From Variovorax sp. 54 (GTDB taxonomy: Bacteria > Pseudomonadota > Gammaproteobacteria > Burkholderiales > Burkholderiaceae_C): a stretch of 64,000 bases of DNA. This document shows, one piece after another, positions 11,181 to 26,607 of the stretch (positions are counted from its first letter, which is position 1; the number at the start of each line of letters is the position of its first letter). The notes below the pieces were generated by a model. That model did not search any database and was not told where the DNA came from. It saw nothing but the letters and a program-made list of their open reading frames with translations. Location of the stretch: positions 6,279,501-6,343,500 of the forward strand of contig NZ_PEFF01000001.1 in NCBI RefSeq assembly GCF_002754375.1, given 5' to 3'. Made by a program: the position numbers and the translations under genes.

Positions 11181-11321
11181 GGTTGGCGATTGTAGTTTCC
11201 CGGGAATTCGGAAGGTCTGGCGCACCGCGCGGGCGCGCGCCGGACGTGGCCGAGATTCTGGGGCCTGCGCCGCCGGTGATCAAACCCGGTGTGGCGTGCG
11301 CGCCCCGTGGGCCTAAAATCC

Positions 11322-11541
11322 TGTCCGTTGGTGCTCGCGGCGTGGTTCGCACGGCGCAGTTCAACGGGAAGCAGGAGTGGACGCCCCCCGGGGCCGAAGC
11401 CGCCTGCGCTGCCCCCGCAACGGTCAAGCAGACGACGCCGCAAGGCGTCACCCCTTTCCATCCAGCCACTGGGCGCTCTGAAACAGGCGCCTGGGAAGGC
11501 GGCAAAGGGTCGATCTGCCAGCCCGGATACCGGCCAACAAG
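11322..11541 (+). promoter_or_regulatory. Cobalamin (adenosylcobalamin) riboswitch
   Basis: Conserved class-I B12 riboswitch segments appear in order. They are GGTGCTCGCGG near 11330, CAACGGGAAGCAGG near 11363, GCTGCCCCCGCAACGG near 11410, GCCACTGGGCGC near 11464, CCTGGGAAGGCGG near 11490 and the B12 box AGCCCGGATACCGGCC near 11520. They lie in the long leader of btuB. High adenosylcobalamin would reduce btuB and probably downstream expression. A TAAAAT -10-like element at 11314-11319 fits transcription starting just before it. Boundaries are approximate. Confidence 0.92.
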
Positions 11542-11543
11542 GC

Positions 11544-11562
11544 GGCTGCCGCATCGGCAGCC
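11544..11562 (+). promoter_or_regulatory. Hairpin after the B12 riboswitch, probable expression platform
   Basis: GGCTGCCG and CGGCAGCC (11544-11551 and 11555-11562) form a perfect 8-bp stem with a CAT loop, immediately after the B12 box. There is no T-run, so this is not a simple intrinsic terminator. A second hairpin (GCCGGC at 11577-11582 with 11589-11594) follows. Control is more likely translational or Rho-dependent. Confidence 0.5.
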
Positions 11563-11624
11563 ATGACGCCCATGGCGCCGGCGGGGAAGCCGGCCAGGGC
11601 ATAGAAGTTCGTTCGGTTCACCCC

Positions 11625-13577
11625 ATGATTTCCTGTGTTTCCCTCTCCAGCGGCCGCGCCAGCGCGCGCCGCAACCGTCCCGCGTGCCTGCCGCTGACAC
11701 TTGCCCTGGCCTCGGCCTTCGGCGGCCTGGCCCTGGTGCCGCTGGCTGCGCAGGCGCAAGCCGCCGCAGCAGCATCTGCCACGCTCGACGAGACCGTCGT
11801 CACCGCCAACCGCACGCCGCAGGCGCTGTCGGACCTGGTGGGCGATGTCTCCATCGTCGACCGCAAGACCATCGAGCGCAGCGGCGCGACCGGCGTGGCC
11901 GACGTGCTGGCGCGCCTGCCCGGCATGGAGCTCTCGCGCAGCGGCGGCGTGGGCAACGCCACCAGCCTGTTCATCCGCGGCGCCGAATCGCGCTTCACCG
12001 CGGTCTACCTCGACGGCGTGCGCATCGACTCGCAATCGACCGGCGGCGCCGGCTGGGAAGGCATTCCGCTGTCGCAGATCGATCGCATCGAAGTGCTGCG
12101 CGGCCCGGCCGCCGCGGTGTACGGCTCGGACGCCGTGGGCGGCGTGATCCAGCTCTTCACCAAGCGCGGCGAAGAGGGCGTGTCGCCCTACGCCGGCATC
12201 GGCTTCGGCAGCCACGGCCTGCGCCGCATCGAAGGCGGCGTGAGCGGCAAGTCGGGCCTGCTTGATTACTCGTTTGGCGTGGCACATGAAGAAAGCAAGG
12301 GCTTCAACATCCAGCCCATCGCCAAGCGCACGCCCTCGAAAGACGGCTTCACCAACCCCGACCGCGACGGCTACCGCAGCACCTCGGGCAACCTGAAGCT
12401 GGGTTTCCAGATCACGCCCGACCAGCGCATCGACGCCACCTTGCTCACCAGCAACACCGAAGCGGCCTACGACCCGTCGGTGAGCTTTCGCACCAAGCTG
12501 CCGATCACCTTCCGCGACGATGTGTCGACCAACGAGCTGCGCACCGCCGGCCTGACCTGGTCGGCCAAGTGGAACGACATCTACAGCACCCGCCTGCAGG
12601 TGACCGATTCGCAGACCGTCTACAAGACCCAGCCTTCGTTCTATCGCACCGAAACCCGCCTGCGCGGCTACCTGTTCCAGAACGAATTCCGCTTTGGCGC
12701 GCACCTGGTGACCGCCACGCTCGAGCGCCGCGAAGACGCGCTCGAAAACGCGCCGACCACCTCGGCCAAGCTGTTCTCGCGCGACCGTTCGCAGAACGCC
12801 GCCGCACTGGGCTACGGCTACGTGAAGGGCCCGCATTCGCTGCAGCTGCACGTGCGCCACGACGACGACAGCGAGTTCGGCGGCAAGACCACCGGCAGCG
12901 CCGCCTACGGCTACGCCATCACGCCGAGCCTGCGCGCCACCGTGTCGGCCGGCACCGCGTTCCGCGCGCCCACGCTGTACCAGCGCTTCAGCGAGTACGG
13001 CCTGGCAAGCCTGCAGCCCGAATCGAGCCGCAACGTCGAGCTGGGCCTGCAGTACACGGCCGGCGCCACGCAGGCCGGCATCGTGCTGTACCGCAACCGC
13101 GTGCAGAACCTCATCGTGTTCGACGGCAGCGCCAAGGGTTGCCAGTCGTCGTTCGGCTGCTACGCCAGCACGGCCCGCGCGCGCTACCAGGGCGTGACGC
13201 TCACGGGCGGCCACCGCATCGGCGACGTCACCTTGCGCGCCTCGCTCGACTACCAGGACCCGCGCGACCTCGCCACCGACAACCTGCTGGCACGCCGCGC
13301 CCGGGCCCACGGCACGCTGGGTGCCGACTGGCGCGTCGCCGGCTGGACGCTGGGCGCCGAGATCCAGAGCTCGGGCAAGCGTTTCGACGACGCCGCCAAC
13401 ACCGTCAAGCTCGGCGGCTACACGCTGCTGAACCTGTCGGCCAGCACGCAGATCACGCGTGACCTGAACCTCGTGGCGCGCGTGGACAATGTGGGCGACA
13501 AGGACTACCAGTTCGCACGGCTCTACGCCAACGGGGGCCGCACCGCGTACGTCGGACTCAAGTGGACTCCGCAGTAA
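11625..13577 (+). CDS. btuB: TonB-dependent vitamin B12 receptor BtuB
   Basis: The 650-residue outer-membrane receptor has a long signal region ending near AAQAQA and a TonB box around DETVVTAN (residues 55-62). The plug domain follows, with DVLARLPGMELSRSGGVGN, FIRGAESRF and IEVLRGPAAAVYGSDAVGGVIQ, then a 22-strand barrel ending in an aromatic-rich terminus (AYVGLKW). The riboswitch upstream and the BtuFCD genes downstream make cobalamin the substrate. The ATG at 11625 has no clear ribosome-binding site, and the frame stays open far upstream through the riboswitch; that extension is not protein-like. The 3' end overlaps cobB by 16 bases. Confidence 0.92.
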   Translation: MISCVSLSSGRASARRNRPACLPLTLALASAFGGLALVPLAAQAQAAAAASATLDETVVTANRTPQALSDLVGDVSIVDRKTIERSGATGVADVLARLPGMELSRSGGVGNATSLFIRGAESRFTAVYLDGVRIDSQSTGGAGWEGIPLSQIDRIEVLRGPAAAVYGSDAVGGVIQLFTKRGEEGVSPYAGIGFGSHGLRRIEGGVSGKSGLLDYSFGVAHEESKGFNIQPIAKRTPSKDGFTNPDRDGYRSTSGNLKLGFQITPDQRIDATLLTSNTEAAYDPSVSFRTKLPITFRDDVSTNELRTAGLTWSAKWNDIYSTRLQVTDSQTVYKTQPSFYRTETRLRGYLFQNEFRFGAHLVTATLERREDALENAPTTSAKLFSRDRSQNAAALGYGYVKGPHSLQLHVRHDDDSEFGGKTTGSAAYGYAITPSLRATVSAGTAFRAPTLYQRFSEYGLASLQPESSRNVELGLQYTAGATQAGIVLYRNRVQNLIVFDGSAKGCQSSFGCYASTARARYQGVTLTGGHRIGDVTLRASLDYQDPRDLATDNLLARRARAHGTLGADWRVAGWTLGAEIQSSGKRFDDAANTVKLGGYTLLNLSASTQITRDLNLVARVDNVGDKDYQFARLYANGGRTAYVGLKWTPQ

Positions 13578-14959
13578 ACAACCGCCGTTTCCCGCCTGGC
13601 GCCGCTGCCACCTGCGCCGCGGTGCTCGTGGCCGCCCCGGCTTCGGGGCAGGGCAAGACGACCGTCGCAGCCGCGCTCGCGCGGCTGCACGTGCGCCAGG
13701 GCCGCCGCGTGCGGGCCTTCAAGTGCGGGCCCGACTTCCTCGATCCGCACTGGCTCGCGCTGGCGACCGGCGCGCCGGTGCATTCGCTCGACCTGTGGAT
13801 GACCGGCGAGGCCGACTGCCGCGCGCGCCTGCATGCCGCCGCGTGCGAGGCCGACCTGGTCATCGTCGAAGGCGTGATGGGCCTGTTCGACGGCACGCCC
13901 AGCGCGGCCGAACTGGCCGCGCGCCTGGGCCTGCCCGTGCTGGCCGTGATCGACGCGCAGGCCATGACCGGCACCTTCGGCGCACTGGCCTACGGCCTGC
14001 AGAACTTCCAGCCGGGCCTGCCCTGGGCCGGCGTGCTCGCGAATCGCGTGGCCAGCGAGCGCCATGCCGACATGCTGAAGGACGCGTTGCGCGAGCCCGC
14101 CGATTGGCTCGGCGCCTTGCCGCGCAGCGCCGACTTCGCATTGCCCGAACGCCACCTCGGGCTGGTCGGCGCGGCCGAACTCGGCGACGCGATGGAGCGG
14201 CTCGACGCTGCGGCCGACGTGCTCGCCACCACGCCGCTCGGACAGCGCACGCCAGAGCAGTTGCCGCAGTTGCGCTTCGAGCCGGAGGCCGCAGTGCCCA
14301 TCGCGCCGCTGCTGGCCGGACGCACCATCGCCATCGCGCGCGACGCGGCGTTCTCGTTCATCTACCCGGCCAACCTCGACGTGCTCGAAGCCCTCGGTGC
14401 GCGGCTCGCGTTCTTCTCGCCGCTGGCGGATGAGCCGCTGCCGCCTTGCGACGCGGCCTGGTTCCCCGGCGGCTATCCCGAGCTGCACGCCGAAGTGCTG
14501 TCGGCCAGCGACCGGTTGCGGCTTTCGCTCGCGAACCATGTGACGTCCGGCAAGCCCATCTGGGCCGAGTGCGGCGGCATGATGGCGCTGTTCGACGAAC
14601 TCGCCACGCGCGACGACGCCGAGCCGCACGACGTGCACCGCCTCTGGGGCGTGCTGCCGGGACGGGCGGTCATGCAGAAGCGGCTGGCCGGCCTCGGCCC
14701 GCAGCAGCTCGACCTCGGCGTGCATGCCTTGCGCGGCCACACCTTCCACTACTCGCGCTGCGAGACGCCGCTCGCGCCCGCCGCGCGCACCGTCGGCACG
14801 CGCGGCGGCGAGGCGCTGTACGTGCACGGCCCCGTGCGCGCGAGCTACTTCCATGCGTGGTTCGCGTCCAGCCCGGAGGCGACCGCGCGGCTCTTCGGCG
14901 CCATGCCCCTCGAACTCGACAGCCGCGCCGTACAGGCGTCTTCCGATGCCCCTCATTGA
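13562..14959 (+). CDS. cobB: Cobyrinate a,c-diamide synthase
   Basis: This enzyme amidates the a and c side chains of cobyrinic or hydrogenobyrinic acid using glutamine and ATP. The 465-residue protein has an N-terminal dethiobiotin-synthetase-like ATPase with the P-loop APASGQGKTTVAAAL and FKCGPDFLDPHW, then VEGVMGLFDG. A C-terminal class-I-like glutamine amidotransferase domain has the catalytic Cys in WAECGGMMAL (about residue 337). It begins inside btuB and overlaps cobP by 14 bases, indicating a tightly coupled operon. The orthologue in anaerobic pathways is CbiA. Confidence 0.93.
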   Translation: MDSAVNNRRFPPGAAATCAAVLVAAPASGQGKTTVAAALARLHVRQGRRVRAFKCGPDFLDPHWLALATGAPVHSLDLWMTGEADCRARLHAAACEADLVIVEGVMGLFDGTPSAAELAARLGLPVLAVIDAQAMTGTFGALAYGLQNFQPGLPWAGVLANRVASERHADMLKDALREPADWLGALPRSADFALPERHLGLVGAAELGDAMERLDAAADVLATTPLGQRTPEQLPQLRFEPEAAVPIAPLLAGRTIAIARDAAFSFIYPANLDVLEALGARLAFFSPLADEPLPPCDAAWFPGGYPELHAEVLSASDRLRLSLANHVTSGKPIWAECGGMMALFDELATRDDAEPHDVHRLWGVLPGRAVMQKRLAGLGPQQLDLGVHALRGHTFHYSRCETPLAPAARTVGTRGGEALYVHGPVRASYFHAWFASSPEATARLFGAMPLELDSRAVQASSDAPH

Positions 14960-15527
14960 GCACGAATTCATCCTCGGCGGCCAGAAAAGCGGCAAGTCGC
15001 GCCGCGCCGAACAGCGCGCCGCCGACTGGCTCGCCGCCGCGCCCACATCGCGCCGCGCGGTGCTGATCGCCACCGCACAGGCCCACGACGACGAGATGCG
15101 CGATCGCATCGCGCGCCACCAGAGCGACCGCGCCGAGCGCGTGCCGGGCCTGCAGACCCTCGAGGAGCCGATCGAGCTGGCGCGTGCCATCGTCACGCAG
15201 AGCGCGCCCGACACGCTCGTGGTGGTCGACTGCCTCACGCTGTGGCTCACCAACCTGCTGATGCCGCTGCGCACCGAAGGTGCCGCCGTGGTCACGCGCA
15301 CGCCCTCGGCGCACGCCACGCTGCTGCTGATCGCGCTGCGCGAGGCGCGCGGACCGGTGGTGCTGGTCGGCAACGAGATCGGCCTCGGCGTGATCCCGCT
15401 GGGCCGCGAGACCCGCGCCTTCGTCGATGTGCTCGGCCGGCTGAACCAGGACGTGGCGGCCGCGTGCCACCGCGCGACGCTGATGGTCGCCGGCCTGCCG
15501 CTGACGCTGAAGGCGCCCGTCGCATGA
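14946..15527 (+). CDS. cobP: Adenosylcobinamide kinase / adenosylcobinamide-phosphate guanylyltransferase
   Basis: CobP (CobU in enterics) phosphorylates adenosylcobinamide and then transfers GMP to it, in nucleotide-loop assembly. The 193-residue protein has the P-loop GGQKSGKSRRAE, the IARHQSDR segment holding the His that becomes guanylylated, VVVDCLTLWLTNLL and VGNEIGLGVIPLGRETRAFVD. Length is normal. The ATG lies inside the end of cobB, and the stop overlaps the btuF start (ATGA). Confidence 0.93.
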   Translation: MPLIEHEFILGGQKSGKSRRAEQRAADWLAAAPTSRRAVLIATAQAHDDEMRDRIARHQSDRAERVPGLQTLEEPIELARAIVTQSAPDTLVVVDCLTLWLTNLLMPLRTEGAAVVTRTPSAHATLLLIALREARGPVVLVGNEIGLGVIPLGRETRAFVDVLGRLNQDVAAACHRATLMVAGLPLTLKAPVA

Positions 15528-16405
15528 GGTTCGAACCCATGAAGACGTGGCTGCGTGCGTCGCTGTTTGGCCTTGCGTTGGTGGTGTGCGCACAGGCTGC
15601 GCAGGCCATCGATGTGGTCGACGAGCGCGGCGTCACCGTGCACCTGGCGCAACCGCCGCAGCGCATCGTCTCGCTGCTGCCATCGCTCACTGAAGGCGTC
15701 TGCGCGCTCGGTGCCTGCGACCGGTTGATCGGCGTCGACCGTTACTCCAACTCGCCCGCGCAGGTGCGTGCGCTGCCGCAGCTTGGCGGCGGGATCGATC
15801 CGAATGTCGAAGCCGTCGTCGCGCTCAAGCCCGACGTGGTGCTGCTCGCCAAGTCGTCGCGCGTGACGCAGCGACTCGAGGCGCTGGGCCTGAAGGTGAT
15901 CGTGCTCGAACCCAAAAGCCATGCCGACGTGCGTCGCGTACTCAGCGCACTCGACCAGGTGCTCGGCACGCACGAGGCGCCGGCCGTCTGGCGCGCGATC
16001 GATGCGGCCGTGTCCGCCGCAGCGCAGTCGCTGCCCGCCAGTGCCAAGGGCCTGCGCGTGTACTTCGAAGTCAACACCGGCCCCTACGCGGCGGGCGATT
16101 CGTCCTTCATCGGCGAGACGCTCGCGCGGCTCGGCGTGAAGAACATCGTGCCGGCGTCGCTCGGCCCCTTTCCCAAGCTCAACCCCGAGTTTGTCGTGCG
16201 TGCGAACCCCGACCTCATCATGGTCAGCGTGCGCAGCGCGATGGGGCTGGAACAGCGCCCCGGTTGGGGCGGCATCCGCGCGGTGCGCGAAGGGCGCGTG
16301 TGCCGCTTCGACGCCGAACAGACCGACGTGGTCGTGCGCCCCGGTCCGCGCATGGACGAGGCCGCGCGCCTGATGGCGCAGTGCCTGTCGGACAAGGGCC
16401 GGTGA
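15524..16405 (+). CDS. btuF: Cobalamin ABC transporter, periplasmic binding protein BtuF
   Basis: The 293-residue class III binding protein has a signal peptide ending AAQAID. RIVSLLPSLTEGVCALGACDRLIGVDRYSN is the typical BtuF N-lobe, followed by GGIDPNVEAVVALKPDVVL and the second lobe. It delivers corrinoid from BtuB to BtuCD in the periplasm. The ATG at 15524 overlaps the cobP stop. A second ATG at 15539 (MKTWLRASLFG) would give a more typical signal peptide start. Confidence 0.9.
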   Translation: MRFEPMKTWLRASLFGLALVVCAQAAQAIDVVDERGVTVHLAQPPQRIVSLLPSLTEGVCALGACDRLIGVDRYSNSPAQVRALPQLGGGIDPNVEAVVALKPDVVLLAKSSRVTQRLEALGLKVIVLEPKSHADVRRVLSALDQVLGTHEAPAVWRAIDAAVSAAAQSLPASAKGLRVYFEVNTGPYAAGDSSFIGETLARLGVKNIVPASLGPFPKLNPEFVVRANPDLIMVSVRSAMGLEQRPGWGGIRAVREGRVCRFDAEQTDVVVRPGPRMDEAARLMAQCLSDKGR

Positions 16406-17421
16406 GCGGCATGCATTCCGCCCATCTGCGTCGCGTGCTGCTGCTCGGTGCCGGCTTGCTGCTGCTGGGCGCGGCGTTGCTGCTCTTCGGCCTCGGCATC
16501 GGCAGCACCGGTTTCCAGAGCCTGCTGTCCGCGCGGCACGATCCGGTGGCGCTGCAGATCGTCTGGGACATCCGCCTGCCGCGCACCCTCGGCGCATGGC
16601 TCGCGGGCGCGCTGCTCGGGCTCGCTGGCGCGGTGGCGCAGGGCTTGTTCCGCAATCCGCTGGCCGACCCGTACCTGCTGGGCAGTGCTTCGGGTGCGTC
16701 ACTCGGCGTGGCGTTGGCGCTGATGCTGTTCGGCGGCTCCGTCACCAGCACGCAATGGGTGATGCGCATCGGGCTCACCGGCGCGGCTTTCGTCGGCGCC
16801 GTGGCCGCGGTGCTGCTCACGCTCACGCTGGCGCGTGGCGTGCAGCAGACCTTGCGGTTGCTGCTCGCCGGCGTGATCGTCGGCGTGGTGCTGGGCGCCG
16901 CCAAAGACCTCATCACCATCGCCTCGGCCGACATCCTGCAGGCGCTGCAGGGCTTCGTGCTCGGCAGCACCGGACTGGTCGGCTGGACCGCCTGCGCCGT
17001 GATGGCGGCGGTCGGTGCGGTCTGCCTGCTGCTGGCCTGGGCGCTCGCGCCGGTGCTCGACGGGCTCGCGCTCGGCGAGGCCACGGCGCGCAGCCTCGGG
17101 TTGCCACTCGGCGGCATGCGCGCCGCGCTGGTGGCGGTGCTGGCGCTGGCGACCGGCGCCGCCGTCGCGCAGACCGGCCTGATCGCTTTCGTCGGCCTGG
17201 CCGCACCGCACCTGGTGCGCTCGGTGGTCAAGACCACGCATGCGCGCCTGATCGTGCTGTCGGCGTTGATGGGCGGGTTGCTGCTGATGGCGGCTGACCT
17301 GCTGGCGCGCTGGCTGATTGCGCCGCAGGAACTGCCGGTGGGCGTGCTCACGGCCGTGCTCGGCGGCAGCTACCTGCTGTGGCTGATGCACCGGCGCGGC
17401 GCGAAGGGAGGCGGACTGTGA
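16402..17421 (+). CDS. btuC: Cobalamin ABC transporter permease BtuC
   Basis: This FecCD-type permease has about ten membrane helices. It carries the family signature RLPRTLGAWLAGALLGLAGA, then QGLFRNPLADPYLLGSASGA, GFVGLAAPHLVR-like GLIAFVGLAAPHLVR (the coupling region contacting BtuD) and LPVGVLTAVLGGSYLLWL. I place the start at the GTG that overlaps the btuF stop (GTGA) with AGGG upstream, giving 339 residues. The ATG at 16411 (MHSAHLRRV) is an alternative. The stop overlaps btuD. Confidence 0.92.
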   Translation: MSGMHSAHLRRVLLLGAGLLLLGAALLLFGLGIGSTGFQSLLSARHDPVALQIVWDIRLPRTLGAWLAGALLGLAGAVAQGLFRNPLADPYLLGSASGASLGVALALMLFGGSVTSTQWVMRIGLTGAAFVGAVAAVLLTLTLARGVQQTLRLLLAGVIVGVVLGAAKDLITIASADILQALQGFVLGSTGLVGWTACAVMAAVGAVCLLLAWALAPVLDGLALGEATARSLGLPLGGMRAALVAVLALATGAAVAQTGLIAFVGLAAPHLVRSVVKTTHARLIVLSALMGGLLLMAADLLARWLIAPQELPVGVLTAVLGGSYLLWLMHRRGAKGGGL

Positions 17422-18200
17422 GCCGCACCCCATCCGCCGCGCTCGAAGCGCACGGCCTCAGCGCCACGCTCGGGTCGGTCGAGGTGCTGCACAGCATCGA
17501 CCTGTCGCTCGCCGCCGGCCGCTGGACCAGCATCGTCGGACCGAACGGGGCCGGCAAGTCGACGTTGTTGAAGGCGTTGGCTGGCTTGCTCGCACACCGC
17601 GGCGAGGTGCGGCTCTTCGGCGACGCACAGGCTGCCGTGCCGGCCCGCGTGCGCGCACGACGCCTGTCGTGGCTCGGCCAGAGCGGCACGGGCGAGGGCA
17701 GTGCCGACGACCTGATGGTCTACGACGTCGCCATGCTCGGTCGCCTGCCGCATCAGCGATGGCTCGCGGCACCTAGCGAAGCCGACCGCGACGCCGTCGA
17801 ACGCGCACTGCGCAGCACCCAGGCCTGGGATTGGCGCGACCGTCCGTTGGGGCAGCTCTCGGGTGGCGAACGTCAGCGTGTGCTGCTGGCGCGGGCGCTG
17901 GCCGTCGAGGCCGAGTTGTTGCTGATGGACGAGCCGCTGGCCAACCTCGATCCGCCGCATCAGGCGGACTGGATGAAGACGGCGCGCGAACTGGTGGCGC
18001 AAGGCCGCACCGTGGTCAGCGTGTTGCATGAATTGCCGATGGCGTTGGCTGCAGACGAATTGGTAGTGATGAATCGGGGGAGGGTGGTGCATCACGGTGC
18101 GTGTTCCGATCCAGTGACTCACGAGGCGCTCGAGCAAGTCTTCGACCATCGGATTCGCGTTCACCGCGTCGCGGATCAGTGGATCGCGTTGCCGCTATGA
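17418..18200 (+). CDS. btuD: Cobalamin ABC transporter ATP-binding protein BtuD
   Basis: The 260-residue ATPase has Walker A GPNGAGKSTLLKAL, a Q-loop at SWLGQSG, the ABC signature LSGGERQRVLLARAL, Walker B LLLMDEPLANLD and the switch His in VVSVLHEL. It powers BtuC. The GTG start overlaps the btuC stop and has a strong GGGAGG ribosome-binding site eight bases upstream. The operon is interrupted downstream by a palindromic repeat before cobO. Confidence 0.93.
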   Translation: MSRTPSAALEAHGLSATLGSVEVLHSIDLSLAAGRWTSIVGPNGAGKSTLLKALAGLLAHRGEVRLFGDAQAAVPARVRARRLSWLGQSGTGEGSADDLMVYDVAMLGRLPHQRWLAAPSEADRDAVERALRSTQAWDWRDRPLGQLSGGERQRVLLARALAVEAELLLMDEPLANLDPPHQADWMKTARELVAQGRTVVSVLHELPMALAADELVVMNRGRVVHHGACSDPVTHEALEQVFDHRIRVHRVADQWIALPL

Positions 18201-19084: not shown

Positions 19085-19783
19085 ATGGTGGCGCATGCGT
19101 TCGCGGCCGACGAGGCCAAGGCGGTGTACCGCGCCATCCACGAGCGGCGCGACATGCGCCACTTTGCAGGGGGTGAGGTGCCGCCCGACGTGCTGCGCCG
19201 CCTGCTCGACGCCGCGCACCATGCGCCCAGCGTCGGCTTCATGCAGCCGTGGCGCTTCATCCGTGTGCGCGGCGAAGAACTGCGCCGACAGTTGCACGAG
19301 GTGGTCGAGCGCGAACGCGTGCTCACTGCCCGCGCGCTCGGCCAGCGCGAAGACGAGTTCATGCGCCTCAAGGTGCAGGGCGTGCTCGACGCGGCCGAGC
19401 TGTTGGTGGTGACGCTGGCCGACGGTCGCGAGCAGCATGTGTTCGGTCGCCGCACCCTGCCGCAGATGGACCTGGCCTCGGCCTCCTGCGCGATCCAGAA
19501 CCTCTGGCTCGCGGCGCGTGCCGAAGGGCTGGGCATGGGCTGGGTGTCGCTGTTCGAGCCCGCCGAGCTGAGCGTGCTGCTCGGCCTGCCCGAAGGCGCC
19601 GAGCCGATCGCCTTGCTGTGCCTGGGGCCGGTGCATGCGTTCTACGAAGAGCCGATGCTGCAGCGCGAACGCTGGGCCAGGCGTGCGCCGCTTGCCTCGC
19701 TGGTGTTCGACGAACGCTGGGGCCGTCCGTCGGACCTGTTCGATCCTTCTTCCACTTCATCTTCTTCCGTGGAGCCCACCTGA
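19085..19783 (+). CDS. bluB: 5,6-dimethylbenzimidazole synthase BluB
   Basis: BluB breaks down reduced FMN with oxygen to make the lower ligand dimethylbenzimidazole. The 232-residue nitroreductase-fold protein has the BluB pattern HERRDMRHFAGG (with the Asp aligned to the essential Asp of Sinorhizobium BluB), HHAPSVGFMQPWRF and ASASCAIQNLWLAARAEGLGMGWVS with conserved serines. A GAGGA ribosome-binding site precedes the ATG. Its presence means the organism can make its own lower ligand aerobically. Its stop overlaps the next start (TGATG). Confidence 0.93.
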   Translation: MVAHAFAADEAKAVYRAIHERRDMRHFAGGEVPPDVLRRLLDAAHHAPSVGFMQPWRFIRVRGEELRRQLHEVVERERVLTARALGQREDEFMRLKVQGVLDAAELLVVTLADGREQHVFGRRTLPQMDLASASCAIQNLWLAARAEGLGMGWVSLFEPAELSVLLGLPEGAEPIALLCLGPVHAFYEEPMLQRERWARRAPLASLVFDERWGRPSDLFDPSSTSSSSVEPT

Positions 19784-20256
19784 TGCTGGCCTTCGACACC
19801 GTTCTCTTCGAACTCGCGCGCCTGTTCCTCTGGCCCGTGACGCTCGGCGTGCTGCTGTCTTTCGTCTACGCGGTGTACTGCCTCGGCGCCTTCGGCATCG
19901 AGTGGTGGCAGCGCCGCCGCGATCCGTCGCGCGCGCTGGTGCTGCAGCGCCATGCGCAGGCCAGCCAGGAGCAGATGGAGCTGGTCGTGCTCAAGCAGCT
20001 CGAAGGCGTGCGCCTGTGCAGCCGCGTGGCGCCGATGCTCGGGCTGATCGCCACCATGATCCCCATGGGCCCGGCGCTCGTGGCCGTGGCCTCGGGCGAA
20101 TCGCAGGGCGTGGCGCAGAGCCTGGCGCCCGCGTTCGCGGCCGTGATCGTGGCGCTGGCTTCGGCCTCGATCACCTTCGTGGTCTACACGGTGCGCCGCC
20201 GCTGGCTCATGCGCGAGTTGGTGATGCTGCTCGACGCGCGGGATCGGCTGTCATGA
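19783..20256 (+). CDS. MotA/TolQ/ExbB-like membrane protein
   Basis: The 157-residue protein has an N-terminal membrane helix (residues about 8-33) and a cytoplasmic segment. Two further helices form a conserved core: RVAPMLGLIATMIPMGPALVAVASG and LAPAFAAVIVALASASITFVVYTV. The PxLGLIATMIPMG stretch is the proton-channel motif of ExbB/TolQ/MotA proteins, so it is probably the channel half of a proton-driven motor. It is shorter than E. coli ExbB. It overlaps bluB upstream and the DUF2149 gene downstream, and is coupled to a CobN-like gene, suggesting it serves that protein rather than TonB in general. Confidence 0.8.
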   Translation: MLAFDTVLFELARLFLWPVTLGVLLSFVYAVYCLGAFGIEWWQRRRDPSRALVLQRHAQASQEQMELVVLKQLEGVRLCSRVAPMLGLIATMIPMGPALVAVASGESQGVAQSLAPAFAAVIVALASASITFVVYTVRRRWLMRELVMLLDARDRLS

Positions 20257-20606
20257 GCCGCAGGCAGTTCTCGATTTTGAGCAGTCTCGACAGCGATGAC
20301 GACGACCCGGTGCTCTCGACCATCAACCTGATCGACGTCTTTATGGTCGTGATCGGCATGCTGATGATCGCGGTCATCAACAACCCGGTGAATCCGTTCT
20401 CGCAGGACAAGGTGACGGTCATTCGCCACGAGGGCCAGCCCGACATGGAGATCATCACGCGCGAAGGCCAGAAGGTCACGCGCTTCAAGGCCAGCGGCGC
20501 GACGGGGCAGGGCGACGGTGAAAAGGCGGGCACCGCCTGGCGCCTGAAGGACGGCACGATGATCTACGTGCCGGCGGACGCGGTGCCGGCGTCGGGCGGG
20601 AAGTGA
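20253..20606 (+). CDS. DUF2149 family protein, ExbD-like partner
   Basis: The 117-residue protein has one N-terminal membrane helix preceded by an acidic patch. The key segment is DDPVLSTINLIDVFMVVIGM, with the helix continuing LMIAVINNP. The Asp in NLIDVF sits where ExbD/TolR/MotB carry the essential membrane Asp, so it may bind the proton. The rest is a small periplasmic domain rich in charged residues. It starts with ATGA overlap on the ExbB-like gene and ends overlapping cobN. The function is unproven; the ExbD-like role is inferred from arrangement and the Asp. Confidence 0.75.
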   Translation: MSRRQFSILSSLDSDDDDPVLSTINLIDVFMVVIGMLMIAVINNPVNPFSQDKVTVIRHEGQPDMEIITREGQKVTRFKASGATGQGDGEKAGTAWRLKDGTMIYVPADAVPASGGK

Positions 20607-23600
20607 CGCGGATTTTCGCGCTTCTGCTCTGCCTCCTGTGCCTGGCGGCGCAGCCTGTGATGGCGGCCGAGTCTCGCGTGGTGGTGTTGAGCACGGCGCT
20701 GGTGTCGCCCGCGCGCGTGGTGCGGTTGCAGACGGCGGCGCACACGGCTGGTGTGCCGCTGCAGGTGGTGTCGGCCGCGCAGGACACGCCCGATGCGCTG
20801 GCTGCCGCGCTCGACGGTGCGCGCCTGCTGGTCATCGATGCGCCGCACCTCAGTGTCGCCCAGTCGGTGGCGGCGCGCTTCGGCGACGTCATCGCACGCA
20901 GCGCCGTTCCCTATGTGCAGATCGGTGAATTCGCGCTCGTGGCGAAAGGCCAGAAGCCGCCCGAGGTGCCACCGCTCGCGGCCGAGCGCGGCGTCGATGC
21001 GGCCTGGGCGCAGCGGCTGCGCGCCTACTGGCGTTTTCCGGGCGAAGCGAACCTGAAGGCCTCGGTCCAGGCTATGGCACGCGCCGGCGATCTAGCCGGG
21101 CTGCCCGACCCCGTGCCGCTGCCACTCGCCGGCTTCTATCACCCCGACTGGCCGCGCGTCGAAAGCAGCATCGCGGCCGTCGAAGCACTGCCGGGCGGAC
21201 AGGGCACCGTCGCCATCGCGGTCAACAGCGCCACGCTCACCGGCGACGACACCGACTGGCTCGACCGCCTGATCGGCACGCTCGCGCAGCGCGGCCTGCG
21301 CGCCTACGCCTTCTACGGCCCGCGCCAGCAGAAGGACCTGTTCTTCCGCATGACCCACGCCAACGAGGGCGAGCGCCGCGTGGCCGACCTCCTCATCAAC
21401 GCCGCGCTGGTGTTCAGCCCGAACGAACGCAAGGCCGAACTCGAACGCATCGGCGTGCCAGTGCTGCAGACGCTGCCGTCGCTCGCCATGGACGCGGCGC
21501 AATGGGCGCGCAGCAAGGACGGCCTCGCGCAGACCGACATCGCCGCTTACTACAGCCCGAGCGAACTCGCGGGCATGACCGACCCGATGCTCGTCACCGC
21601 GCGCGACGCTGCCACCGGCAGCCTGCAGCCGCTGCCCGCGCAGATCGATGCCGTGGCCGACAAGGCCGCCGCGCTGCTGCGCCTGCGGCGCACGCCTGCC
21701 GCTGAGCGCCGCGTGGCGATGCTGGTCTACAACTACCCGCCGGGAGAGGCCAACTTCGGTGCGTCGTTCCTCAATGTGCCGCGCAGCGTCGACCGGATGC
21801 TGTCCGCGATGCAGGCCGCCGGCTACCGCACCGAGGCGCCGGGCGCGGACAAGGTGATCGCGCAGGTGCAGGCCACGATGAAGGCCTACTACCCGACGGC
21901 ACAAGGCGGTGATGCGCTGCAGCCGCTGCTCGACCAGGGGCTGGCCGACACGCTGCCGCTGTCGCAATACCTCGCGTGGTTCCGCGCGCTGCCCGTGGAG
22001 ACGCAACGCCGCATCGAAACCTACTGGGGCCCGCCCGAAGCCTCGGCCATGCTGCGGCCCGTGGCCGGCGCACCGGCCTTCGTGGTGCCGCGCGTGCAGT
22101 TCGGTCAGGTGGTCGTGCTGCGCCAGCCGCCGCGCTTCGAGCCCGGCACGCAGGTGGCCGACAAGGCGCAGCAGGTCTATCACCGCGCGGCCGTGCCGCT
22201 GAGCCACGGCTACCTCGCGACCTACCTCTGGCTGCGCAGCCGCTTCGGTGCCGATGCGCTCGTGCATGTGGGCACGCACGGCACGGTCGAGTGGTCGGCG
22301 GGCAAGGAGCGCGGGCTCTCGGTGCAAGACGATCCGCTGCTCGCGCTGGGCGACGTGCCCAACGTCTACCCTTACATCATGGACAACCTCGGCGAGGCGA
22401 CGACTGCGAAGCGCCGCGGTCGCGCGACGATGGTGAGCCATTCGACGCCGATGTTCGCGCCTGCGGGCTTTCGCCCCGGCGTGCGGGACATGCACGACCG
22501 CCTGCACGACTGGGAAACGCTGGCGCCCGGCGCAGTGAAGACGGCGATGGAACGGCGCCTCACCGCCGACTTCGTTGCCCAGCACTACGACCGCGACCTG
22601 CAATGGACGCCCGCGCGCATCCGCGCCGACTTCGCCGGCTTCATCGCCGTGCTGCATCCGTACCTCGACGAGCTCGCGCAGACCGCGCAGCCGCTGGGCC
22701 TGGCGACCTTCGGCGAGGCGCCCGATGCGCAGCGGCGACGTCAGACCATCCTGCAGATCCTCGGCAAGCCCGTGGCGCAGGCGATGGGCGAAGACCTCGA
22801 CGAGATGTTCCTCACCGATGCGCAAGGCATTGCCGCGTCGAAGCCTGCGCGTTGGCTGGAAGCCGTGCTGGCGGGCCAGGACACGGCCGACGCTGAGCCT
22901 TTGCGCGCCCTGGCCGCACGGGCCCGCGCGCTCGACGCGGTGCTGGCCCACAACGAGGAGATCGAAGGCCTGCTCACCGCGCTCGACGGCCGCTACCTGA
23001 AATCGCGCTACGGCGGCGACCCGGTGCGCGACCCCGACAGCCTGCCGACCGGCCGCAACCTCTACGGCTTCGATCCCAGCCGCGTGCCCACGCGCGCCGC
23101 CTGGGACACCGGCGTCGCCGCGATGGACGACTGGATCGCTGCACACGTCCGCACCCACGGTGGCCGTCCGCCGCAAAAGATCGCCTTCACGCTCTGGGCC
23201 GGCGAGGCCTCGCGCCACCAGGGCGTGACCGAGAGCCAGGCCTTTCATGCGCTGGGCGTGAAGCCGCGCTGGGACGAGGCCGGGCGCATGGTCGGCATCG
23301 AGATCGTGCCGGCCGCGGTGCTGAAACGGCCGCGCATGGACGTGCTGATCAGCGTCACCGGTTCCTACCGCGACCAGTTCCCGCACGTGATGCGCTGGCT
23401 CGACGAGGCCGTGCAGCAGGTGGCCACGCTCGACGAGCCCGGCAACGCCGTCGCGCAGCACAGCGAGGCGATGGCGCGCACGCTGCGTGGGGAGGGCGCG
23501 ACGGCGGCCGAGGCGCGGCGCTGGTCGACCGCGCGTGTGTTCTCGAACGAGCAGGGCAGCTATGGCGCCGGGCTCGAGGAAGCGGTACTCGCGACCGAGC

Positions 23601-24595
23601 TCTGGAAAGGCCAGCAGCGCGGCGGCGGCGACGCCCAGATGGCCGGGCTCTACATGGACCGCATGGGCCACGCTTACGGGCGCGGCCTCGACGGCGCCAC
23701 GCGCACGGGCGCCTTCGCGGGCAACCTCGCGCAGGTCGATGCCGCGCTGATGGCGCGCACCTCCAACCTCTACGGCGTGCTGACCAACGACGACCCGTTC
23801 CAGTACCTGGGCGGCATCGCGCTCGCCGTGCGCCACCTCACGGGCAAGGACCCGGCGTTGTACGTGCAGAACCTGCGCGACGGCGCGGCCGTGCGCACCG
23901 ACACCGCCGCCGGCGCCATCGCGCGCGAGATGCAGACGCGCTACCTGCACCCCCAGTGGATCGAGGCGCAGAAGGCCGAGGGCTACAGCGGCGCGCTGCA
24001 GGTGCTCAAGACCGCGCAGTTCCTCTGGGGCTGGCAGGCGACCGCGCCCGCGGCCGTGCGCGCGGACCACTGGCAGTCGCTGCACGAGGTCTATGTGCGC
24101 GACACCTACAGGCTCGGCACGCGGCAGTGGCTGGAGCGCGAGAACCGCGCCGCCTTCGCGCAGACGCTGGAGCGCATGCTCGATGCCGTCCGGCTGAACT
24201 ACTGGAAGCCCGATGCCACGACGCGGCGCGAACTGGCGCAGGCCTACACGGAAGCAGCAAGCGCCACTGGGCTGCGCGAGCGGAACGAGGCGGTGCAGCG
24301 GTTTGCGCAGGCTGCGTTGGTGCCTTCGCCGTCGGCGGTGACTGCCCCTGCGCCGGTCGTTGCTGCGCCGCCCATCGCGCCCGTTGAGGCGGCGGCGCCC
24401 GCACCCGAGTCGCCCACGGCAGATCTGGCGCAGTCGGTGACCGGCCTCCAGCTGAAGCCCATCACTGACACCGCATCGCCCCCGCCGCCATCCGCCGTGC
24501 TGCCGCGCCTGCTCGCCGCGTTCGGCGCTGCTTTGCTGCTGGCCGTCGGCGCGCTGGTGCAATGGCGGCGCGGCCGGGCCGTGCCTGCCGCCTGA
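20603..24595 (+). CDS. cobN: Exported, membrane-anchored CobN/chelatase H-subunit homologue
   Basis: The 1330-residue protein is homologous to the large subunit of cobaltochelatase (CobN) and magnesium chelatase (BchH/ChlH). Family landmarks include VHVGTHGTVEWSAGKERGLS (about residue 555), PNVYPYIMDNLGEATTAKRR, VLISVTGSYRDQFPHVMRWL and the C-terminal MARTSNLYGVLTNDDPFQYLGG. Unlike classical cytoplasmic CobN it starts with a clear signal peptide (FALLLCLLCLAAQPVMA). It ends with a Pro/Ala-rich linker, a transmembrane helix (LLAAFGAALLLAVGALVQW) and a basic tail, so most of it should be periplasmic. No CobS/CobT ATPase genes are near. The GTG start overlaps the DUF2149 stop. It could insert or remove metal from tetrapyrroles or bind corrinoids; the activity is unknown. 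Confidence 0.88.
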   Translation: MTRIFALLLCLLCLAAQPVMAAESRVVVLSTALVSPARVVRLQTAAHTAGVPLQVVSAAQDTPDALAAALDGARLLVIDAPHLSVAQSVAARFGDVIARSAVPYVQIGEFALVAKGQKPPEVPPLAAERGVDAAWAQRLRAYWRFPGEANLKASVQAMARAGDLAGLPDPVPLPLAGFYHPDWPRVESSIAAVEALPGGQGTVAIAVNSATLTGDDTDWLDRLIGTLAQRGLRAYAFYGPRQQKDLFFRMTHANEGERRVADLLINAALVFSPNERKAELERIGVPVLQTLPSLAMDAAQWARSKDGLAQTDIAAYYSPSELAGMTDPMLVTARDAATGSLQPLPAQIDAVADKAAALLRLRRTPAAERRVAMLVYNYPPGEANFGASFLNVPRSVDRMLSAMQAAGYRTEAPGADKVIAQVQATMKAYYPTAQGGDALQPLLDQGLADTLPLSQYLAWFRALPVETQRRIETYWGPPEASAMLRPVAGAPAFVVPRVQFGQVVVLRQPPRFEPGTQVADKAQQVYHRAAVPLSHGYLATYLWLRSRFGADALVHVGTHGTVEWSAGKERGLSVQDDPLLALGDVPNVYPYIMDNLGEATTAKRRGRATMVSHSTPMFAPAGFRPGVRDMHDRLHDWETLAPGAVKTAMERRLTADFVAQHYDRDLQWTPARIRADFAGFIAVLHPYLDELAQTAQPLGLATFGEAPDAQRRRQTILQILGKPVAQAMGEDLDEMFLTDAQGIAASKPARWLEAVLAGQDTADAEPLRALAARARALDAVLAHNEEIEGLLTALDGRYLKSRYGGDPVRDPDSLPTGRNLYGFDPSRVPTRAAWDTGVAAMDDWIAAHVRTHGGRPPQKIAFTLWAGEASRHQGVTESQAFHALGVKPRWDEAGRMVGIEIVPAAVLKRPRMDVLISVTGSYRDQFPHVMRWLDEAVQQVATLDEPGNAVAQHSEAMARTLRGEGATAAEARRWSTARVFSNEQGSYGAGLEEAVLATELWKGQQRGGGDAQMAGLYMDRMGHAYGRGLDGATRTGAFAGNLAQVDAALMARTSNLYGVLTNDDPFQYLGGIALAVRHLTGKDPALYVQNLRDGAAVRTDTAAGAIAREMQTRYLHPQWIEAQKAEGYSGALQVLKTAQFLWGWQATAPAAVRADHWQSLHEVYVRDTYRLGTRQWLERENRAAFAQTLERMLDAVRLNYWKPDATTRRELAQAYTEAASATGLRERNEAVQRFAQAALVPSPSAVTAPAPVVAAPPIAPVEAAAPAPESPTADLAQSVTGLQLKPITDTASPPPPSAVLPRLLAAFGAALLLAVGALVQWRRGRAVPAA

Positions 24596-24604
24596 TTCAC
24601 GAGA

Positions 24605-25594
24605 ATGCCTGCCATGCCTGCGCTAGATCCCTTCACTGTCTTCGCCCTCGCGCTGGTCGCCGCCCTGTGGCTGGCGCTGGCCGTCGACCGCTGGCTGGGC
24701 GAGCCGCCCGCGCCGCTGCACCCTGTCGTGTGGATGGGCGGCTACCTGGAATGGATCGGCAGCCGCCTCGCACCGCGCGCCGCCGACGCGAAGCCACGCG
24801 ACCTGCCGGGCTTCGCGATGGGCGCGCTCGGCTGGTGCGTGGGCGCGATGGCCGCATTCGCCGTCGCGTCGGCGGTGCAGAGCCTGGCGATGCAATGGCT
24901 GCCGGTGTGGGCCATGGCCGTGGTGCTTGGGCTCGCGTTCAAGCCGCTATTTGCATGGCGCATGCTGCGCAACGAAGTGCTGGCGGTCGAGGCCGCGCTG
25001 GGCGAATCGCTGGACGCGGGCCGCGCACGGCTCGCGCGCCTCGTGAGCCGCGACGTCTCGGTACTGAGCGAGCGCGAGGTGCGCGAAAGCGCCATCGAGT
25101 CGCTGGCCGAGAACCTCAACGACTCGCTGGTGGCGCCCGTGTTCTGGTTCGTGCTGTTCGGCCTGCCGGGTGCGGCGCTCTACCGCTTCGCCAACACCGC
25201 CGACGCCATGTGGGGTTATCGCGGCGAACGCGGCGGGCGCGACTGGACCTGGTTCGGCAAGTGGGCCGCACGCGCCGACGACGTGCTCTCGTGGCTGCCC
25301 GCGCGCCTCACCGTGCTGCTGCTGGCGCTTGCGGCGGCCCGCTGGCCGCGCGGCGTGGTCCGTGAGGCGCGCCGCACGCCATCGCCCAACAGCGGCTGGC
25401 CGATGGGTGCGATGGCGCTGCTGCTGGGGGTGCGGCTTGCGAAGCCGGGCGTCTATGCGCTGAACGGGGAAGGGCGCGCGGCCACGTCTGCCGACACCGC
25501 GCGCACCGCGCAGCTCGGCGAACGGGCGGCGTGGGGGCTGGCGGTGATCGCTTCGCTCGCGATGCTGTCGCCGCTGCTGGCGAGGTGGGCATGA
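24605..25594 (+). CDS. cobD: Adenosylcobinamide-phosphate synthase CobD (CbiB)
   Basis: CobD attaches aminopropanol or its phosphate to cobyric acid. The 329-residue integral membrane protein has the conserved DRWLGEPPAPLHPVVWMG start, VRESAIESLAENLNDSLVAPVFW, FGLPGAALYRFANTADAMWGYR and SPNSGWPMGAMALLLGVRLAKPGVYALN, all diagnostic of CbiB. Starts at 24605 or 24614 are both possible. The stop overlaps the next gene (ATGA), which supplies the aminopropanol-phosphate precursor. Confidence 0.93.
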   Translation: MPAMPALDPFTVFALALVAALWLALAVDRWLGEPPAPLHPVVWMGGYLEWIGSRLAPRAADAKPRDLPGFAMGALGWCVGAMAAFAVASAVQSLAMQWLPVWAMAVVLGLAFKPLFAWRMLRNEVLAVEAALGESLDAGRARLARLVSRDVSVLSEREVRESAIESLAENLNDSLVAPVFWFVLFGLPGAALYRFANTADAMWGYRGERGGRDWTWFGKWAARADDVLSWLPARLTVLLLALAAARWPRGVVREARRTPSPNSGWPMGAMALLLGVRLAKPGVYALNGEGRAATSADTARTAQLGERAAWGLAVIASLAMLSPLLARWA

Positions 25595-26607
25595 CGAATC
25601 ACGCGATGGTGCACGGCGGCCCCGACGAGACGGGCGCTGCGCCGCACGACTTCTCGACCAACGGCAACGCGGTCGGCTCGTGTCCCGTGGTGCTGGCCGC
25701 ACTGCGCGAGGCCGACGCGGCGCACTATCCCGACCCGCGCTACACCGCGCTGCGCGCCGCGCTCGCTGCCTTCCACGGTGTGGCCGTGGAGCGCGTCGCG
25801 ATCGCTGCGAGCGCGAGTGAATTCATCCACCGCATCAGCGCCGCTGTGGCGCAGGGCGGCGGTGGAGATGTCTGGCTGCCCGCACACAGCTATGGCGACT
25901 ACGAGCGCGCCGCCGGGGCCTGGGGCCTCGGCGTGCGACGCGCACCCGAAGAGGCCGAAGGCGCCGCGTTGCGCTGGTGTTGCGAACCATCGAGCCCGTT
26001 CGGCCAGCCGCAGCCCGACATCGCGCAGCATGCCGCGAGCGATGCGGTCTGCGTGCTCGACATGGCCTACGAACCGCTGCGCCTCGAAGGCCAGCCCTCG
26101 CACGACGACGCGCAGCGCGACCGCGTCTGGCAGCTGTGGACACCGAACAAGGCCATGGGCCTCACGGGCATCCGCGCCGCCTACGCCATCGCGCCGGCGA
26201 ACAGCGACGTGGCCGGCCCGCTGCTGGAGCGGCTCGAACGCCTCGCGCCCTCGTGGCCGCTGGGCACGCACGGCGTGGCGCTGCTCACGACATGGACCAC
26301 CGACGAAGCGCAAGGCTGGCTCGCGCGCAGCCTCGACATCCTGCGCGACTGGAAGGCGCGGCAGCGCGCCGTCTGCGAATCGCTCGGTTGGGAGGTGCTG
26401 CGAGGCGACGCCAACTTCTTCGGCGCGCGGCCCGACACGCCATACCCGCCCCGCGCCGCCGCACTGCGCGCCGAGGGCATCAAGCTGCGCGACTGCGCCT
26501 CTTTCGGTCTGCCGGGGCACCTGCGCCTGGGCGTGCTGTCGCCGGCCAGCCAGCAGGCATTGAAGGCCGCGTGGGCGAGGGCCAGCGCCGCACGACACAG
26601 CGGCTGA
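25591..26607 (+). CDS. cobC: CobC-type PLP-dependent aminotransferase (threonine-phosphate decarboxylase-like)
   Basis: The 338-residue fold-type I PLP protein of the histidinol-phosphate aminotransferase family is found as CobC or CobD in B12 clusters, where it makes (R)-1-aminopropan-2-ol phosphate from threonine phosphate. It has DFSTNGNAVG near the start, HYPDPRYTALRAALA, and the PLP lysine in WTPNKAMGLTGIRAAYA, followed by an Arg-containing C-terminal domain. The usual GSXELI loop reads ASASEFI. It is coupled to cobD by ATGA overlap. It is the last gene of the first cobalamin block. Confidence 0.88.
   Translation: MTNHAMVHGGPDETGAAPHDFSTNGNAVGSCPVVLAALREADAAHYPDPRYTALRAALAAFHGVAVERVAIAASASEFIHRISAAVAQGGGGDVWLPAHSYGDYERAAGAWGLGVRRAPEEAEGAALRWCCEPSSPFGQPQPDIAQHAASDAVCVLDMAYEPLRLEGQPSHDDAQRDRVWQLWTPNKAMGLTGIRAAYAIAPANSDVAGPLLERLERLAPSWPLGTHGVALLTTWTTDEAQGWLARSLDILRDWKARQRAVCESLGWEVLRGDANFFGARPDTPYPPRAAALRAEGIKLRDCASFGLPGHLRLGVLSPASQQALKAAWARASAARHSG

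Follow-up and report, generated by a model that had tools for sequence, protein, structure and literature searches.

The window analysed here, a 64,000-nucleotide stretch of the genome of Variovorax sp. 54 (positions 6279501-6343500 of 6.64 Mb), holds a B12 locus in which three overlapping genes encode an ExbB/TolQ/MotA-like membrane protein, a DUF2149 protein and an exported homologue of CobN. We refer to the three together as the triad, and to the first two as the pair. The locus runs along one strand in the order riboswitch, btuB, cobB, cobU, btuF, btuC, btuD, cobO, bluB, triad, cbiB and a cobD-like gene. The individual features (ORF, open reading frame) are as follows, in window coordinates.

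11312..11552, + strand: cobalamin riboswitch (RF00174), 62.4 bits, gathering threshold 31.5
11289..13577, + strand: ORF of a btuB-like TonB-dependent receptor; TIGR01779 435 bits over residues 141-760, below the cut-off of 599.7; PF00593 and PF07715
13562..14959, + strand: cobB, cobyrinic acid a,c-diamide synthase; NF002204 416.5 bits, above the cut-off of 254
14724..15527, + strand: cobU ORF (matched domain 82-262); PF02283 156 bits; NF004469 153.3 bits, just below the cut-off of 161
15242..16405, + strand: ORF of a btuF-like periplasmic binding protein; PF01497 95 bits; BtuF model 66.9 bits, below the cut-off of 234
16264..17421, + strand: ORF of a btuC-like permease; PF01032 252.8 bits; BtuC model below cut-off
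17379..18200, + strand: ORF of a btuD-like ATPase; PF00005 95.6 bits
18318..19079, + strand: ORF of a cobO/btuR corrinoid adenosyltransferase (likely start ATG 18510); TIGR00708 198.5 bits, above cut-off
19085..19783, + strand: bluB, dimethylbenzimidazole (DMB) synthase; TIGR02476 250.3 bits, above cut-off
19783..20256, + strand: ExbB/TolQ/MotA-like membrane protein; PF01618 30.3 bits, cut-off 22.9
20253..20606, + strand: DUF2149 protein, single membrane helix with Asp28; PF09919 88.7 bits, cut-off 27.1
20603..24595, + strand: exported CobN homologue of the HmuS/BtuS branch; PF02514 963.9 bits, hydrophobic ends, trees
24437..24454, + strand: juxtamembrane V-x-G-x-x-L box (VTGLQL, residues 1279-1284) before the C-terminal helix of the CobN homologue; pattern match
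24605..25594, + strand: cbiB; TIGR00380 219 bits, above cut-off
25531..26607, + strand: cobD/cobC-like aminotransferase; PF00155; TIGR01140 101 bits, below cut-off

The btuB-like ORF overlaps the riboswitch, so its coding part must begin downstream of that element. The gap between btuD and cobO (18216-18477) is filled by nested imperfect inverted repeats, with arms of 31, 27 and 13 nucleotides that are 85-92% complementary; these resemble a small mobile or palindromic element and may influence transcription into the triad.

The exbB-like gene overlaps bluB by one base, starts with ATG and encodes 157 residues; the DUF2149 gene (117 residues, also ATG) overlaps it by 4 bp (ATGA), and the cobN homologue (1330 residues, GTG start) overlaps the DUF2149 gene by a further 4 bp (GTGA). 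The first protein belongs to the ExbB family by a weak match above the cut-off, and hydropathy gives it four hydrophobic stretches, three of them strong, while a profile of its family matches the solved ExbB and TolQ only at E 0.03-0.04. Its partner matches PF09919 and not ExbD, and there is no TonB in the triad. The sole hydrophobic stretch of the DUF2149 protein, residues 24-42, contains Asp28, which is invariant in the aligned relatives (14/14 and 29/29 in two alignments); among solved structures its best match was an unconvincing one (E 0.087). In the CobN homologue, residues 4-22 and 1303-1321 form hydrophobic stretches; the protein scores 1326.8 against NF004644, an NCBIfam CobN model with a cut-off of 1248, and does not reach five other NCBIfam CobN models.

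Export and anchoring were called across the homologues with purpose-made hydropathy rules and not with a dedicated predictor. A simple measure of N-terminal hydropathy separated exported from cytoplasmic forms poorly (114/146 vs 9/20) because start sites are uncertain, and a stricter rule was then applied. A C-terminal helix is found in all 51 homologues from B12 loci, 38 of 41 from outside B12 loci, all five of a divergent group (see below) and none of 16 cytoplasmic-type proteins, and a signal-like N terminus in 43/51, 38/41, 3/5 and 1/16, respectively; in these counts L046, L078, L083 and L110 stand outside both main groups, and the L122 fragment is too short. An initial annotation of this DNA had described genes overlapping by four bases, an ExbB/TolQ/MotA-like channel protein, an Asp in the single membrane helix of the DUF2149 protein, and a CobN with a signal peptide and a C-terminal anchor. 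Its coordinates, frames and start codons were correct, and the family matches, the invariant Asp28 and the conserved hydrophobic ends agree with the rest of the description. When HmuS of Porphyromonas was expressed in E. coli, the results supported a location in the inner membrane, facing the periplasm, with caveats of the authors (PMC13227078; papers are cited by such numbers). Of 43 homologues made non-redundant at 70%, 32 have a V-x-G-x-x-L/M box before the C-terminal helix, where shuffling gives an expectation of 3.8. The V-x-G-x-x-L pattern was picked after inspection of the sequences, and a broader first form of it also matched 4 of 16 cytoplasmic-type C termini; the box is absent from the hmu-type proteins of L265, L268 and L078 and from L052, L059 and L061. 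The box is a candidate contact with the putative membrane motor.

DUF2149 was found in 17 of 398 genomes in the phylum sample, in 24 of 150 genomes in the family sample and in a single copy in the window's own genome; the nearest named DUF2149 proteins come from Variovorax. Every one of the 17 phylum-sample genomes with DUF2149 has a CobN, against 117 of the 381 without it (Fisher p 4e-9, kinship ignored), as have 22 of the 24 in the family sample. A scan of named genomes took in the best 80 of at least 515 confirmed relatives, and gene neighbourhoods were compared at 120 DUF2149 loci (L046-L165), some of which are present in both collections. At 115 of the 120, tblastn saw both exbB and DUF2149, with exbB always upstream on the same strand; the remaining five are divergent loci, where tblastn missed the DUF2149 gene that Pfam had found. 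A CobN homologue is present in 99 of the 115 pair loci, and five of the 16 without it are contigs of 3.8-10.5 kb. Where at least three other B12 genes are nearby (56 loci), DUF2149 is followed by CobN in 53 and by the contig end in three. The association of the pair with CobN, for which the initial annotation had suggested a neighbourhood survey of DUF2149, CobN and BtuB, is thus not chance.

Six of the eleven other CobN-less pairs were typed, two as ChaN (L127, L134) and four as Sel1 (L128, L145, L158, L079). In L127 and L134 a ChaN-type heme-binding protein adjoins the pair with no CobN within 10 kb, and a resistance-nodulation-division (RND) pump is encoded in both (by Pfam in L127, by eye in L134); L157 has a receptor-like gene, CobN, the pair and ChaN in a row. 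No CobN was found within the fetched extent of the four Sel1-type loci; a kinase gene lies beside the pair and Sel1 in L158 (Pfam), and two-component-like genes were seen by eye in other Sel1 loci. The genomes of L126, L127 and L134 encode CobN elsewhere, and in that of L127 an exported CobN homologue adjoins cobW and a cytoplasmic-type CobN (L231:4888-16281), no pair being detected in the 20 kb around it. Methanosarcina acetivorans, which has no outer membrane and served as a control genome, encodes both DUF2149 and CobN.

Two maximum-likelihood trees (49 and 39 rows, hand-chosen, by a quick method) contain a single branch, with Shimodaira-Hasegawa-like approximate likelihood ratio test (SH-aLRT) support of 99 in both, that divides cytoplasmic CobN, ChlH and two proteins grouping with ChlH from HmuS and all of the exported homologues included. 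The window protein falls on the HmuS/exported side, apart from cytoplasmic CobN. Against solved chains, a profile of 17 exported homologues scored highest with HmuS (777 bits), followed by CobN (724 and 719) and ChlH (669); the cytoplasmic-type CobN encoded elsewhere in the genome scored 1264 bits with CobN and 357 with HmuS. A divergent B12 group (L052, L059, L061), with one genome from the window's order and the others from its class, has the exported form as well; the second tree supports its placement near the main branch weakly (66). B12-linked members imply at least three changes of label on the starred branches of the tree (Burkholderiales and kin, the divergent group, and Geobacter), and the B12 association may reflect several gains, or one gain with losses. 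The protein of L078 (genome G413, from the same family as the window) carries the HmuS-like motif SLDHVYEFMGG and groups with HmuS; L078 is likely a heme-type system within the window's own family.

The kinship extends to the partners. In the hmu operon of Bacteroidota, HmuS is accompanied by HmuU (MotA/ExbB) and HmuV (DUF2149), the same partners as in the window (PMC10434189); the initial annotation had pointed to similar small membrane proteins there. Relatives of the triad adjoin hmu genes in L265, L268 and L272. Three HmuT-like proteins had no noteworthy match in Pfam. HmuS also has a signal peptide and a C-terminal anchor (PMC13227078), as the window protein appears to have by hydropathy. 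One difference lies in the surroundings: HmuS has HmuY and HmuR as neighbours, whereas the window has a B12 riboswitch with BtuB, BtuCDF and cob genes.

Riboswitch searches covered 14 loci of the window's clade, seven outside it, four of the five divergent loci, and L263, L229 and L264. Twelve of the 14 clade loci have a cobalamin riboswitch (the window, six of a set of seven with L120 as the exception, L164, L165, L267, L073 and L081); no match was found in L120 and L083, whose contigs (17 and 14 kb) offer little upstream sequence. There is none in the seven tested loci outside the clade, nor in Ottowia L229 or Runella L264, and one is present in each of the four tested divergent loci and in Geobacter L263. 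Three loci that belong to the clade by tree (L164, L165, L267) have the riboswitch, and neither gene detection nor annotation shows another B12 gene in their vicinity. Between the end of the riboswitch and exbB lie about 90 bp in L267 (40.2 bits, gathering threshold 31.5), about 210 bp in L164 and a ZrgA gene in L165. A B12-linked role of the triad is supported by these riboswitches. The triad is real, well conserved and B12-linked, and its architecture is that of HmuS/HmuU/HmuV; it is hence a B12 variant of the HmuS kind.

We considered whether the window protein might be an ordinary CobN of de novo synthesis that has been misread as exported, since it does pass NF004644. PF02570 (CbiC/CobH), a shared marker of ring making, is absent from all ten genomes with B12-locus triads in the set of 24 searched, the window's own genome among the ten, while the same search was positive in four of the 24. 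Neither a CbiD nor a CobT (PF06213) match was found in the window's genome, which appears unable to make the corrin ring. With no match to CbiC, CbiD or CobT, the CobN homologue is unlikely to serve in classical late cobalt insertion here, and de novo insertion was set aside as a candidate function. CbiC is present in five of 26 named clade genomes, a set that shares at least two genomes with the ten others. Four of the five also carry CbiD of the anaerobic pathway, in which cobalt is inserted early (PMC7689651); the remaining one, G558, encodes a cytoplasmic-type CobN as well. PF06213 scored above its cut-off in 7 of 27 genomes, strongly in G570 (273 bits) and at 68-103 bits in the other six.

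No CobS/CobT or ChlI/ChlD partners are among the genes scanned at the triad locus. A second CobN, of cytoplasmic type, is encoded at 655817-659128 next to cobW, together with ChlI-like AAA and VWA genes whose best NCBIfam matches, below the cut-offs, are cobaltochelatase or magnesium chelatase subunits; this CobN, too, lies in a genome where neither CbiC nor CbiD was matched. The initial annotation had reported that CobS/CobT are lacking, which stands for the locus and, as regards CobT, for the genome, and has to be qualified by the second CobN with its ChlI-like AAA and VWA genes. It had also named CobS/CobT partners encoded elsewhere, or a role confined to de novo cobalt insertion, as findings that would tell against a periplasmic machine; with no PF06213, CbiC or CbiD match in the genome, neither appears to apply. 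Given this second CobN and the conserved export-like ends, a misread ordinary CobN seems to us hardly credible. That cobB scores above its cut-off while the ring marker is missing from the genome suggests that early corrinoids, not yet amidated, are salvaged.

What we computed is the overlap and order of the genes, their export-like ends, the tree branch, the riboswitches, the missing ring-synthesis markers and the residue pattern described below; motor coupling, proton use, a corrinoid substrate and a direction of reaction are what we infer. We hold, with about even confidence, that the triad is a proton-motive-force-coupled exported class I chelatase of the HmuS-type branch, regulated by B12 and acting on periplasmic corrinoids. 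The large CobN-like body would sit in the periplasm, held by its C-terminal helix, and the ExbB-like and DUF2149 proteins would form an inner-membrane motor in the role that the AAA+ proteins CobS/CobT or ChlI/ChlD play elsewhere. Proton flow through this motor would open and close the CobN-like body. The substrate would be a corrinoid brought by BtuB, en route to BtuF, and the reaction would most probably be cobalt insertion or metal exchange on corrinoids that carry no metal or the wrong one. The proton-motive-force-driven periplasmic tetrapyrrole machine of the initial annotation is upheld in part, in its exported form, HmuS kinship, B12 link and motor-like pair replacing AAA+ partners.

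The residues of the presumed active site were compared with those of HmuS, whose roles we take from PMC12583661. The window protein keeps HmuS His538 (as His559), His506 (His527), Glu542 (Glu563) and Ser1199 (Ser1054). His559, in HVGTHG, aligns with the cleft His538 in the HFG(T/A)HG of HmuS, and together with Glu563, Asp1063 and Asp1064 in the cleft it is kept in 22 of 22 non-redundant clade members; an equivalent of the cleft His538 is common to CobN and ChlH, so it is not specific to HmuS. The HmuS signature LSLDHxxEFMGG is replaced by LTNDDPFQYLGG in the window protein, with Asp1064 for His1209 and Gln1067 for Glu1212, and the genome's cytoplasmic-type CobN likewise has Asp and Gln at these positions. 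By alignment, the head/neck heme ligands Met79 and His254 of HmuS become Pro81 and Leu269, and further changes are Phe502 to Gln and Trp1202 to Tyr. Straight membership of HmuS was rejected on the loss of two signature site features, the 1209/1212 motif and Met79/His254.

The Asp at HmuS position 1209 is not B12-specific, being shared by 32 of 33 non-redundant relatives outside B12 loci (a set that excludes L054, L164 and L165); L055 and the nikR-linked L266 have His and Glu at positions 1209 and 1212. Within the exported branch, two other positions set the window's clade apart from relatives outside B12 loci: that of HmuS Ser1014 is Ala (Ala866) in 22/22 clade members and Ser in 33/33 relatives outside B12 loci, and that of Glu1281 is Lys (Lys1136) in 22/22 and Asp in 30/33. 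The clade-specific Ala and Lys would fit a changed ligand but may reflect descent. When 17 clade-specific columns were compared with five cytoplasmic CobNs, only column 934 matched the window's clade throughout, and 601 matched the relatives outside. The divergent B12 lineage and that of Geobacter share Ala866 and Asp934, which may be ancestral.

The initial annotation had seen a fit to a dechelatase or binding role; the heme de-chelatase signature is not kept here. Were the triad nevertheless to release metal as HmuS does, cobalt or another metal would be stripped from an imported complex and the ion taken up. This agrees with the company that its relatives keep: besides the hmu-linked loci there are relatives with hyp or nikR genes (L264, L266) and the Zur-regulated PA1922-PA1925 cluster (PMC9431628), and Azonexus L165 combines a riboswitch and ZrgA with a nearby ZnuA-type importer. 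Such metal-linked neighbours favour metal chemistry over mere carrying. Release in particular we judge unlikely, as the HmuS signature is replaced and a genome without ring synthesis would gain no B12 from free cobalt.

Among these relatives, a Runella plasmid (L264) has the triad inside a hyp nickel-hydrogenase cluster and an Azospirillum plasmid (L266) has it beside nikR, which suggests nickel versions of the triad. In Azonexus (L165:8668-18541) the riboswitch is followed by a gene for a ZrgA-family metal-uptake protein, by the triad and, 1.9 kb further on, by a ZnuA-type ATP-binding cassette (ABC) importer, a possible case of B12-controlled cobalt uptake.

Metal might also be left untouched altogether, the body binding a corrinoid from BtuB while the pair drives its passage to BtuF. 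Such a hand-over machine would suit the operons of the clade, where the triad has btuB, btuFCD and cob genes for neighbours, and would also suit the binding of heme by HmuS at a head/neck site besides the central cleft (PMC12583661). A mere carrier, however, has no obvious need of the four conserved cleft residues, and the HmuS head-site ligands are not kept; we therefore see hand-over as possible but doubtful. Between the conceivable reactions of the triad, insertion or exchange is the most likely and plain hand-over the next. The preference for insertion or exchange is one of low confidence; it arises because the host seems to be without ring synthesis, because the metal site resembles that of CobN over that of HmuS, and because cobalt removal gains nothing for B12 in a genome that makes no ring. 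To our knowledge the metal-inserting class I chelatases described so far all use an AAA+ ATPase. A more specific proposal, which we offer as tentative and rather improbable, is that of a proton-motive-force-driven periplasmic cobaltochelatase with which bacteria that make no ring load imported metal-free or wrongly metallated corrinoids with cobalt before the inner membrane is reached.

Metal insertion by CobNST and ChlIDH uses ATP (PMC7689651), and by analogy the pair may be linked to the energetics of a class I chelatase. HmuS shows no need for ATP; in lysates its activity is dependent on NADH and membranes, while the pure protein achieves one or two turnovers (PMC12583661), and an effect of HmuU and HmuV on HmuS is not excluded by the authors of PMC13227078. 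The pair could also be a dedicated Ton motor for BtuB, with CobN as a passenger, given its ExbB family match and a figure legend according to which HmuU and HmuV work with HmuR (PMC12583661). This is very unlikely in our estimation, and we disfavoured it as a candidate function: seven canonical ExbD genes are present elsewhere in the genome, the triad has no TonB, and 99 of 115 pairs lie with CobN. On the Geobacter lovleyi plasmid (L263) both systems even stand side by side, in the order receptor, DUF2162, ExbB-like, DUF2149, CobN, ExbB, ExbD, TonB, receptor.

Several observations weigh against a proton-driven exported chelatase. Glu and Thr of the third helix are important in ExbB; the ExbB-like protein keeps the second-helix Thr by alignment, but the third-helix Glu and Thr are not kept at the aligned positions of its family profile, so proton conduction is not assured. 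Short contigs aside, 11 of 110 loci have the pair without a nearby CobN, two of the 24 DUF2149 genomes of the family sample have no CobN, and the genomes of L128 and L158 have none at all; the pair is thus not tied to CobN alone, which weakens the idea that it exists only to drive CobN. Taken alone, the window protein gives a near tie between solved CobN (372 bits) and HmuS (364 bits). Ala866 is not B12-specific, as it occurs in the HmuS-like L078 besides the divergent group and Geobacter, and Lys1136 is found in the nikR-linked L266 besides Geobacter. Three clade genomes have CobT-family matches (G555, 103 bits; G561, 95; G562, 73), which may be true CobT or other VWA proteins. A natural supply of metal-free corrinoids is presupposed by the insertion reading, and E. 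coli, as far as we know, imports B12 without any such triad. The HmuS activity, too, is NADH-dependent and not reported as proton-driven in the accessible text of PMC12583661.

The initial annotation's statement that such a system appears undescribed in B12 uptake was too strong. According to PMC6460266, Rodionov et al. 2003 proposed BtuS as a third type of CobN; it is CobN-like, distinct from CobN and ChlH, and in Bacteroides fragilis membrane-anchored on the periplasmic side. The use cited for BtuS is heme, however, and neither ExbB nor DUF2149 is mentioned in PMC6460266. For Geobacter, PMC3403914 has already remarked on a cobalamin region where TonB genes adjoin a CobN that lacks CobST. The G. 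lovleyi plasmid pSZ77 resembles the window in having CobN with ExbB-like and DUF2149 genes in a cobalamin region behind cobalamin riboswitches, and differs in its separate place in the tree, its DUF2162 gene and full Ton set, and a host that makes cobalamin (PMC3403914). The Pseudomonas aeruginosa cluster PA1922-PA1925 is alike by description (receptor, CobN-like, ExbB/ExbD-like and DUF2149 genes), although it is under zinc control as part of the Zur regulon (PMC9431628). CobN-CobS-CobT and ChlH-ChlI-ChlD share the class I chelatase body, whereas they are cytoplasmic, have an AAA+ motor (PMC7689651) and lie on the other side of the main branch. Among the titles and passages seen in searches of open-licence papers, none proposes that a motor pair serves an exported CobN during the uptake of B12.

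The exported homologue and its motor-like partners raise the possibility that imported B12-type molecules are worked on outside the cytoplasm. If the proposed mechanism is correct, a family of enzymes would have exchanged its inner ATP-driven rings for a proton-driven membrane motor acting outside the cytoplasm, and would have been fitted to heme, nickel and B12 clusters and, according to the literature, to a zinc-regulated one. The halt of purified HmuS after one or two turnovers might then be explained. DUF2149 would gain a function, and the salvage of B12 a periplasmic step.

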